Shown one piece after another: positions 6,192 to 8,941 of a stretch of DNA of 33,795 nt; position 1 is the stretch's first letter; each line of letters begins with the position of its first letter. The notes under the pieces are model-generated. The model searched no databases. It was not told the origin of the DNA and worked only from the letters and a program-made list of their open reading frames with translations. The stretch comes from Nitrospira sp. (lineage in GTDB: Bacteria > Nitrospirota > Thermodesulfovibrionia > Thermodesulfovibrionales > SM23-35), in assembly GCA_016873615.1 (NCBI GenBank), contig VGWX01000022.1, positions 1-33,795 on the forward strand. Direction: 5' to 3'. The position numbers were made by a program, and so were the translations under genes.

Positions 6192-7415
6192 TTAAAATAC
6201 TAACGTAACTGCCCATGAAACAGTTAGGAAGATTACTGAGATAATCGTTCCCCATGATATATAGTTTTGCATTCTGGAATTAGTGAACTCTCCCATGAGC
6301 TTCTTGTTATTAATCAGTAATATGGCAAACACAAGGACAAACGGCAACAAAAGGCCGTTAATAACTGCTGAGAGCACCATTAAAAAAACAAGAGGAGCGC
6401 CGGGGATTAAGACAAGCAGGGAAGCCAGCGCTATTGTTAATGTGTAGATCCACATAAACTGGGGCGCATCCTTGAAGGTTTTATTCACGCCTCTTTCCCA
6501 GCCCATTGCCTCGCATATATAATATGCTGTTGCAAGGGGCACTATTATTGCCCCGAGCAATGAAGCATTCGCCAATGAAACAGCGAATATCAGGGAAGCG
6601 TAATCTCCGGCCAATGGCCTGAGAGCCAGGGCAGCTTCTGAAGCTTCATTGATCCTGATGCCATAAGGGAAGAGAAGCGTGCCGCAAGTTATTATAATAA
6701 AAAAACTTATAATGTCGGTTATGGAACATCCTATAATTACATCAAGCCGGGAGGCTTTGTAATGTTCCTTTGAGATGCCTTTTTCTGCTATGGATGACTG
6801 AAGGTAAAACTGCATCCAGGGTGTAATGGTTGTTCCGATGATTGCTATGCTCATCATTATGTACTCTGATTTCCATTGTATTTTTGGAACAAACGTTTGC
6901 TTTATTACGGCGTTCCAGTCCGGGTTTGCCATGACCCCGGATATGATATACCCTACGAATATAAAACAGGCATAAAGCAGTATGATCTCCACAACCCTGT
7001 AACTCCCTTTTGTGACCAATATCCATATGGTGACAGCCCCAAAAGGCACCATCATATATTTTGTAAATCCGAGGATTTCCATGCTCGCAGCCCATCCCGC
7101 AAAATTAGCCACAGTATTTCCGAAGTTTGCGATGAGGAGACCTAACATCATAAAAAATGTTGTCTTAACTCCATAGTTTTCGCGGATTAGATCAGACAGC
7201 CCCTTTCCGGTAACAACGCCCATGCGGCCTATCATTTCCTGTATTACTACGAGAGCTATTGTTGTGGGTATTAATGTCCAGAGCAAAGAGTATCCGAATC
7301 TTGCGCCTGCAACTGAATAGGTGGTTATACCGCTCGCGTCATTGTCAATGTTTGCAGTTATTATCCCCGGCCCCATAACGGAGATGAATACAGCAACTTT
7401 TTTCCAGAGACTCAT
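6192..7415 (-). CDS. NRAMP/SLC11-family metal ion transporter with atypical substrate-site motifs (possible Mg2+ type)
   Basis: Overall NRAMP-like hydrophobic protein: 'MGPGIITANIDNDASGITTYSVAGARFGYSLLW', 'GRMGVVTGKGLSDLIRENYG', 'IIGTTITPWMQFYLQSS'. Start overlaps the stop of the upstream MgtE-like gene (ATGA). Confidence 0.88.
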   Translation of the reverse strand: MSLWKKVAVFISVMGPGIITANIDNDASGITTYSVAGARFGYSLLWTLIPTTIALVVIQEMIGRMGVVTGKGLSDLIRENYGVKTTFFMMLGLLIANFGNTVANFAGWAASMEILGFTKYMMVPFGAVTIWILVTKGSYRVVEIILLYACFIFVGYIISGVMANPDWNAVIKQTFVPKIQWKSEYIMMSIAIIGTTITPWMQFYLQSSIAEKGISKEHYKASRLDVIIGCSITDIISFFIIITCGTLLFPYGIRINEASEAALALRPLAGDYASLIFAVSLANASLLGAIIVPLATAYYICEAMGWERGVNKTFKDAPQFMWIYTLTIALASLLVLIPGAPLVFLMVLSAVINGLLLPFVLVFAILLINNKKLMGEFTNSRMQNYISWGTIISVIFLTVSWAVTLVF

Positions 7416-8674
7416 ACCTTTCTCCTCTTGCGTTTTGCTGACGGCGGGAGGATTACGTCTATAACATCATCAACGGTAACAATACCAAGCATGAATCCTT
7501 CCGTATCAACGACAGGAATTGCAACAAGGTTATACTTTGACACAATCTCAGCAACTTCAATTTCATCTGTATCCGGTGTAACGGTTTTTAATTTCTTTTC
7601 CAGGATATCAGAGAGCTTTGCATCCGGAGGTGCGAGAAGCAGCTCTCTCAGGGAGACAACGCCAAGCAGTTTTTCATCAGGATCAGTAATGTAGAGATAA
7701 TAGACAGTCTCGACATCCTCAGCATCTTTCCTGAATTTCTCTATAGCGTCCTTTACGCTGATTTCCGGCGGATATGTTATGAAATCATTTGTCATCAGTC
7801 CGCCAGCGGTATCCTCTTCATGGCTGAGCAGTTCCTGTATATCTTCCGCCTCTTCCTTCTCTATGCTCTCAAGTATCTCTTTCGCCTTGTCTACAGGAAG
7901 ATCACTGAGCACATCAGCAGCCTCATCAGGAGGCATTTCTTCAATAATATCTGCTGCCTTATCTGTATCCATTCCGGTTATAATCGCTGCCTGTACATCA
8001 GGTTCAAGTTCTGAAAGTGCTTCAGCCGCAGTCTCCACATCAAGTCCCTTGAAAAATGATGCCCCTTCTTTATGAGATACCTGGCTGATAATCTCTGCAA
8101 TATCAGCGGGGTGAAGTTCTGATACCATCTGTCGCGGGACTGTAAGGGAGATTTTTGTAAGTTTCGGCTCCAGGGGCTGGATATATGTCCAGCTGATAAG
8201 GTTATATGAGAGATGTTTATTAAATATTCTCATAACATCTTCTCCACCCCTTTCAACCCCAAGCCTGCGCATGATACCTCTCATCCCCACGTCAACTGCA
8301 ATAAGTATAGCCTCTGAATCAAAACCCTCAAGCTTGACGTCATTTACCCTGACAACCTTTACGCCATTTGCATCAACTATCTGTTTGTCAAATATATCCC
8401 TGACTATAAGGAGGTCTTTCTCATTGAATTCATAAGTCTGGAGGCTTTCCGTATAAATATTTGAAGAGATTATTCTCTTGTTGAATATATTCAGGCCGGT
8501 CCAGGGGAGATTCAGAAGACTTTTCTTTTTCTCAAGTATCAGGGCGGATACTTTGGGGAATGCTTCACCCCTAACAACAACAATATCCCTGACTTTACCC
8601 AACTCCTCGCCCTTTGGGTCAAGTACAGGTTTCCTGAGTATTTCACTTACAAATAATTCACCAAAAAAAGGCAT
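7412..8674 (-). CDS. PRC-barrel-like + MgtE N-terminal domain + tandem CBS protein, without the MgtE membrane domain
   Basis: 'LVSEILRKPVLDPKGEELGKVRDIVV' (PRC-like); 'LHPADIAEIISQV...LSELEPDVQAAIITGMDTDKAADIIEEMPPDEAADVLSDLP' (MgtE_N); 'HEEDTAGGLMTNDFITYPPEISVKDAIEKFR' and following CBS repeats; terminates after CBS at KRKRRKV. Confidence 0.9.
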   Translation of the reverse strand: MPFFGELFVSEILRKPVLDPKGEELGKVRDIVVVRGEAFPKVSALILEKKKSLLNLPWTGLNIFNKRIISSNIYTESLQTYEFNEKDLLIVRDIFDKQIVDANGVKVVRVNDVKLEGFDSEAILIAVDVGMRGIMRRLGVERGGEDVMRIFNKHLSYNLISWTYIQPLEPKLTKISLTVPRQMVSELHPADIAEIISQVSHKEGASFFKGLDVETAAEALSELEPDVQAAIITGMDTDKAADIIEEMPPDEAADVLSDLPVDKAKEILESIEKEEAEDIQELLSHEEDTAGGLMTNDFITYPPEISVKDAIEKFRKDAEDVETVYYLYITDPDEKLLGVVSLRELLLAPPDAKLSDILEKKLKTVTPDTDEIEVAEIVSKYNLVAIPVVDTEGFMLGIVTVDDVIDVILPPSAKRKRRKV

Positions 8675-8747: not shown

Positions 8748-8760
8748 GTAGCATTACGAA

Positions 8761-8844
8761 AGGGTTCGAGGGGTCGAGGATTCAAGGGTTCTATTCATGA
8801 ACTCTACGATCTTGAACCCTAAAATGCTTGAATTCTTGAACCCT
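8761..8844. repeat. Intergenic imperfect inverted repeat (GGGTTC-aAG-nnnTC-aAG type)
   Basis: Left AGGGTTCGAGGGGTCGAGGATTCAAGGGTTC (8761-8791) is largely the reverse complement of GAACCCTAAAATGCTTGAATTCTTGAACCCT (8814-8844). Confidence 0.75.
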
Positions 8845-8941
8845 GACTCATAAGTATAGCTTACAGATTTTTATTTCAGCAATATGAAAATGAAAGGGGT
8901 TTGCTTTATAATTTATTAATCAAGATATCAGAGGTATTGTT

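Follow-up and report, generated by a model that had tools for sequence, protein, structure and literature searches.

A free-standing MgtE-type sensor encoded beside an NRAMP-related transporter in Nitrospirota, and its fusion to an MgtE channel in relatives

The stretch of DNA analysed here (33,795 nt of Nitrospira sp. contig VGWX01000022.1, hereafter the window) carries on its minus strand two overlapping genes, one encoding a transporter of the NRAMP-related Mg2+ transporter (NRMT) branch and the other a detached counterpart of the cytosolic, Mg2+-sensing half of the MgtE channel. The most likely mechanism, to which we assign a probability of roughly 0.6, is Mg2+-feedback control of the NRMT in trans by the cytosolic sensor. 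The parts of this system, their linkage, the retained Mg2+ residues and the interchange of the transporter with an MgtE pore can be read directly from the genomes compared. The features of the pair are as follows.

6192..7415, minus strand: NRMT, NRAMP-related Mg2+ (or Mg2+/Mn2+) transporter, 407 aa (PF01566 and EleNRMT kinship)
6822..6833, minus strand: TM6 metal-site motif T195-T-I-T198 (TxxT) replacing AxxM, with P199-W200 replacing P-H (alignment)
7329..7340, minus strand: TM1 metal-site motif D26-A-S-G29 (DxxG) replacing DPGN (alignment with EleNRMT, DAGG, and DraNramp, DPGN)
7412..7415, minus strand: 4 nt shared by the end of the sensor frame and the beginning of the transporter frame (ORF coordinates; -4 spacing in 63/78 loci)
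7412..8674, minus strand: free-standing sensor, 420 aa, with PRC, PRC-like, MgtE_N, CBS pair and basic tail (Pfam; MgtE cytosolic domain 2yvy)
7415..7447, minus strand: conserved basic C-terminal tail PPSAKRKRRKV, residues 410-420 (kept in nearly all detached sensors)
7448..7798, minus strand: CBS pair, residues 293-409, with D403 (=D247) and D406 (=D250) of T. thermophilus MgtE (Pfam and alignment)
7811..8116, minus strand: MgtE_N, residues 187-288, with E218 (=E59), D250 (=D91) and D254 (=D95) of T. thermophilus MgtE (Pfam E 1e-29)
8279..8404, minus strand: possible second PRC-like barrel, residues 91-132 (PF05239 E 0.02; model strands 98-128)
8468..8662, minus strand: PRC-barrel domain, residues 5-69 (PF05239 E 5.8e-8)

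The transporter and the sensor

The 407-aa protein is a member of the NRMT branch by sequence, motif and fold. It matches the Nramp profile over its full length (PF01566, E 2.3e-99; residues 30-381 over profile positions 1-357), and its nearest solved relative is EleNRMT of Eggerthella lenta (7qia, E 1.7e-103; 43% identity in the fold match), followed by canonical DraNramp (3e-29). Its AlphaFold2 model, of moderate confidence (pLDDT 67.5), best matches EleNRMT 7qji with a TM-score of 0.84. The EleNRMT report gives the NRMT binding-site signature as DxxG in TM1 with TxxA/T in TM6 (PMC8806188); the 407-aa protein carries it as DASG and TTIT, the TM6 form being TxxT here and TxxA in EleNRMT, and DxxG with TxxT or TxxA occurs in nearly all relatives above 45% identity (87 aligned). 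The LeuT-type fold and PF01566 are shared with canonical NRAMP/MntH proteins (DraNramp, ScaDMT), whereas DPGN and the TM6 Met and His are missing: TM6 reads A-T-V-M-P-H in DraNramp and T195-T-I-T198-P-W here, and alignment to DraNramp revealed no intact DPGN/MPH site elsewhere in the protein. The protein also scores far below the cut-offs of the canonical NRAMP/MntH models TIGR01197 and PRK00701. A canonical Mn2+/Fe2+ NRAMP identity was rejected on motifs and kinship, and both the non-canonical TM1 and TM6 sites and the kinship with an NRAMP-related Mg2+ branch, proposed in an earlier note on this DNA, are borne out. The window's genome encodes one NRAMP-family protein, one MgtE_N protein and one CorA.

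NRAMP-family proteins of other kinds were also encountered among the loci compared. A protein with canonical motifs (DPGN, MPH) and a C-terminal universal stress protein domain is encoded at L064:2242-4119 (Usp E 4.5e-22; L063 similar), proteins of about 553 aa, whose C-terminal extension has no Pfam match and whose motifs are TM1 DAGA and TM6 TTIAPWQ, at L060:184-1842, L061 and L062, and one with a mixed site (TM1 DTDAGS; TM6 AVIMPW, with Met kept and His not) at L076:1438-2658.

The 420-aa partner is an MgtE-type cytosolic module by sequence and fold. It matches the cytosolic domain of T. thermophilus MgtE (2yvy) with E 3e-38, and the top Foldseek matches of its model (pLDDT 69.5; both models were built from 25-28 close homologues and are of moderate confidence) are all MgtE cytosolic domains, with a global TM-score kept low by the poor prediction of how the domains are arranged. 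The protein shares with T. thermophilus MgtE (2yvx/2yvy) the MgtE_N domain and the CBS pair with the acidic Mg2+ residues of the N/CBS interface, and differs in carrying a PRC barrel at its N-terminus and a basic tail at its C-terminus and in lacking the plug helix and the channel, the chain stopping 11 residues past the CBS domains, which end at residue 409. A second PRC-like stretch (residues 91-132) is suggestive only: its match to PF05239, obtained when the stretch was searched alone, lies below the Pfam cut-off, and its strands are seen in the moderate-confidence model. The MgtE channel domain PF01769 is absent from the 420-aa protein, as the earlier note had described when it reported PRC-like, MgtE_N and CBS regions and no channel, and from the rest of the window's genome; no DNA-binding or output domain was found in the sensor. 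In detached sensors the tail (LPPxAKRKRRKV) takes the place of the acidic plug helix of MgtE. A broken or truncated MgtE gene was ruled out as an explanation, the form of about 420 aa with a conserved tail being the norm among the 81 detached sensors compared.

In T. thermophilus MgtE, the Mg2+ sites of the cytosolic domain are Mg4 (D91/D247), Mg5 (D226/D250), Mg6 (D95) and Mg7 (E59), with Mg2 (E258) and Mg3 (D259) in the plug, and mutation of D91/D247, D95 or E59 impairs Mg2+-dependent closure (PMC5882242). In the alignment, detached sensors keep D91 in 81/81, D95 in 81/81, E59 in 78/81, D247 in 77/78 and D250 in 73/78 cases. The window sensor keeps the Mg4, Mg6 and Mg7 equivalents (E218, D250, D254 and D403, in its own numbering) as well as D406, and has N382 for D226 of Mg5, a residue that is also N in half of the ordinary MgtEs compared. 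The plug sites Mg2 and Mg3 cannot exist in a detached sensor because its chain ends in the basic tail. Judged from this pattern, divalent-cation sensing is likely retained in the detached sensors. At the ATP-contact sites (taken from PMC5529423), the stacking residue F227 is L383 in the window sensor, and across the detached sensors N203 is replaced by E and V207 by K, with Y170 and R187 mostly kept; with half of the pocket changed, ATP modulation is probably weakened.

Linkage, co-occurrence and distribution of the pair

The 4-nt overlap of the two reading frames, already seen in the earlier note, likely reflects translational coupling. Among 78 loci at which the retrieved stretch contains both genes and transporter identity is at least 47% (some genomes being counted twice), 63 share the identical overlap, and in all 78 the sensor gene lies upstream and co-directional. 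Over 296 Nitrospirota genomes, 106 encode both proteins, 2 the transporter only, 6 the sensor only and 182 neither (Fisher p ~4e-70, a statistic that ignores phylogeny). All eight exceptions are accounted for: four contig edges, comprising the two transporter-only genomes (G003 and G273, both at contig ends) and two genomes whose sensors run off contigs (G073 and G068), three channel fusions described below, and one frameshifted sensor (G134). The recurrent overlap and the co-occurrence across 296 genomes argue that the pair is not due to chance; the conserved linkage whose absence the earlier note took as refuting its reading is present. Both genes are present at separate loci in G150, G244, G238 and G198, and such separation is seen in some genomes of the f7 family.

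Several individual loci depart from this arrangement. The frameshifted sensor of G134 (L119:3403-4664) adjoins mtnA, lying upstream of it; its reading frame is shifted in the assembly at about residue 369, and the genome has no close NRMT. In G152 the sensor is apparently split, its PRC half lying about 0.8 Mb from its MgtE_N-CBS half, the latter adjoining the NRMT gene (L109:3147-5158, L110:1986-2636). An 890-aa open frame in G111 was considered as a natural sensor-NRMT fusion and ruled out, since it consists of an upstream stop-free stretch and the genes are separate. With regard to the surroundings of the pair, no M-box riboswitch was matched by Rfam in the window, nor RF00380 in 150 genomes of the order, and an intergenic repeat lies between the sensor gene and murA (window positions 8755-8850), of which the rest of the genome contains one partial copy (74% identity) and two short copies.

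A divergent branch with about 35% transporter identity has the reverse gene order, transporter first, with about 200 nt between the genes. Divergent pairs in this reverse order were noted at L066, L068, L070, L071, L072, L074 and L120 and on a Citrobacter plasmid (L155:5959-8671); in their sensors D91 is replaced by A and the C-terminus reads LKHRFV or similar. The same kind of pair is also found on plasmids of Bacillota, Actinomycetota and Enterobacterales: that of an Alicyclobacillus plasmid is 48.6% and 33.3% identical to the window pair, the actinomycetotal examples come from Mycolicibacterium, Rhodococcus, Arthrobacter and Streptomyces, and the Citrobacter and Serratia pairs are in reverse order. 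On the Citrobacter plasmid the pair is flanked on one side by genes for a heavy-metal P-type ATPase and an ArsR/SmtB regulator and on the other by a Tn3 transposase, and its sensor has A for D91 and N for D250, like the divergent Nitrospirota branch. Since D91 and D250 are lost, pairs of the Citrobacter type and of the divergent branch may read another metal.

Sensor-channel fusions at the same locus

In three relatives the sensor is fused to the MgtE plug and channel: G144 (L105:3572-5395), G268 (L106:3925-5748) and G232 (L107:3519-4742). In the first two the reading frame stays open beyond the sensor, through an acidic plug (MEEEATEDI or MEAEATEDI) and the MgtE channel, giving proteins of 607 aa with Pfam MgtE channel matches of E 4e-28 and 3e-26, respectively; the L105 protein matches full-length MgtE 2yvx with E 3e-80 (phmmer). 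In G232 the same fusion is spread over a contig break (L107/L108). The fused sensors are 57-68% identical to that of the window, and no NRMT match was found in any of these three genomes. Downstream of the fusions follow mtnA, a polyprenyl synthase gene and a 168-aa ORF in the window's order, which places the fusions at the same locus with the NRMT gene gone.

In a tree built from residues 1-390 of the sensors, with the divergent branch as root, all three fusions nest within the detached sensors of one family (100/98), and L105 pairs with L081, a detached sensor from a genome of the same genus (98/98). The nesting of fusions among detached sensors in the rooted tree makes the fusion most likely the derived state. 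As the ancestral state it is disfavoured by the same tree and the strong bootstrap for nesting, the AU test against monophyly of detached sensors being borderline (p 0.048). The three fused channels share 62-70% identity among themselves and no more than 45% with the other MgtEs compared. On these comparisons the fusion would have arisen at least once, perhaps twice, and a single short segment hints at a crossover near residue 390. Across the Nitrospirota genomes, NRMT genes and MgtE channel genes seldom occur together, with 3 genomes carrying both, 105 and 122 one only, and 66 neither (p ~1e-29, phylogeny being ignored), as expected of functional equivalents. The occurrence of the same sensor with a transporter in some genomes and with a channel in others suggests that it controls either one.

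Proposed mechanism, alternatives and significance

Under Mg2+-feedback control, the NRMT (LeuT fold, DxxG/TxxT site) would import Mg2+, perhaps Mn2+ too, and the sensor, as the cytosolic half of an MgtE channel, would form a homodimer acting in trans. With enough Mg2+ in the cytosol, binding of the ion at the acidic N-domain/CBS interface would compact the sensor, which would then dock on the transporter or membrane via the PRC barrels and/or the basic C-terminal tail, and uptake by the NRMT would be shut down. We infer the gating, the substrate (Mg2+ as opposed to Mn2+), the dimerisation and the docking. The persistence of the pair in the reverse-order branch and the unlinked retention of both genes in some f7-family genomes speak for feedback by Mg2+; the absence of an M-box, the D226 to N change, the loss of plug sites Mg2 and Mg3 and the altered half of the ATP pocket speak against it, as does the behaviour of the Acidobacterium capsulatum pair described below. 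A broader proposal, which we consider evenly balanced, is that PRC-MgtE_N-CBS constitutes an interchangeable Mg2+-gating cassette that, within one sensor lineage, would serve a LeuT-fold secondary transporter in trans and, after an in-place swap, an MgtE pore of unrelated structure in cis; whether the C-terminus is a basic tail or an acidic plug would set the partner.

The adjacency itself has been known since 2014, and the window pair is a further instance. According to Shin et al. (2014; PMC4072509), genes for MgtE cytoplasmic domains adjoin most NrmT genes, and cytoplasmic feedback or chaperoning was proposed; the M-box Mg2+ riboswitch precedes only a subset of operons of NrmT and an MgtE-like fragment and is not required. 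Like those operons, the window pair sets an NRAMP-related transporter beside a gene encoding the N-terminal cytoplasmic part of MgtE, with adjacency, co-direction and conservation across genomes; unlike the riboswitch-bearing subset, it has no M-box. Of the earlier note's proposal that an MgtE-type sensor is coupled to an NRAMP-fold transporter, the NRMT assignment, the linkage and the kept Mg2+ residues stand; its novelty does not, such coupling having been published by Shin et al. To the extent checked, the present analysis adds the in-place exchange for an MgtE pore, the PRC barrel, the change from plug to tail and the conservation of individual residues: the main text of PMC4072509 does not describe them, the accessible text on EleNRMT does not discuss a partner protein (PMC8806188), and a search of later literature (PRC-barrel with MgtE; NRMT with MgtE; subscription papers lay outside its scope) returned nothing on the NRMT partner.

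The same sources bear on the alternatives. Shin et al. report that the Acidobacterium capsulatum pair, an NrmT with its adjacent sensor, complemented Mn2+ uptake and not high-affinity Mg2+ uptake, and that co-expression of this sensor brought no gain, Mg2+ rescue not being improved (PMC4072509); EleNRMT carries both Mg2+ and Mn2+ (PMC8806188). The window transporter might, then, be chiefly a Mn2+ (or mixed Mn2+/Mg2+) importer whose sensor reads Mn2+ or the Mn2+/Mg2+ balance, as would also suit the lack of an M-box and a genome in which this is the sole NRAMP-family protein while CorA is present for Mg2+. We regard this as rather unlikely, given a TM6 site without methionine, the retained Mg2+-sensing residues of MgtE and relatives that put a Mg2+ channel in place of the transporter on the same sensor. 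The last two observations weigh likewise on the partner being a metal chaperone, scaffold or assembly factor for the NRMT and not its gate: the residues retained are those required for Mg2+-dependent closure of MgtE, and the fusions join the same PRC-bearing protein to an MgtE pore whose plug motif is intact, the position expected of a gating domain. Chaperoning was named as an alternative by Shin et al. (PMC4072509), the PRC barrel and the basic tail are both absent from MgtE, and the PRC half in G152 lies at another locus than the MgtE_N-CBS half next to the NRMT gene; even so, we hold a chaperone or scaffold to be improbable.

Least probable of the readings weighed is that the linkage reflects shared regulation only, a soluble Mg2+ sensor acting on another target such as CorA or gene expression. 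The loci at which sensor and NRMT are unlinked (G150, G244, G238 and G198) would be compatible with it, yet both genes co-occur even there, genomes that lack the NRMT have a sensor either joined to a channel or carrying a frameshift, the swap takes out exactly the transporter, and the sensor has none of the DNA-binding or output domains sought. Feedback by Mg2+ on the transporter remains our preferred reading. The Clostridium acetobutylicum NrmT, reported by Shin et al. to function without its sensor (PMC4072509), fits an inhibitory role for the sensor, though it does not prove one.

What the MgtE-like fragment does beside NRMTs is a question dating from 2014, and the same-locus sensor-MgtE fusions amount to an experiment performed by nature, with chimera partners at hand for examining whether a secondary transporter can be gated in trans. 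If the proposed control is correct, two unrelated membrane machines would operate under one Mg2+ sensor fold and the NRMTs would gain a defined regulator; sequence might also offer a possible guide, with kept acidic sites marking Mg2+-sensing pairs and loss of D91 marking diverged ones.
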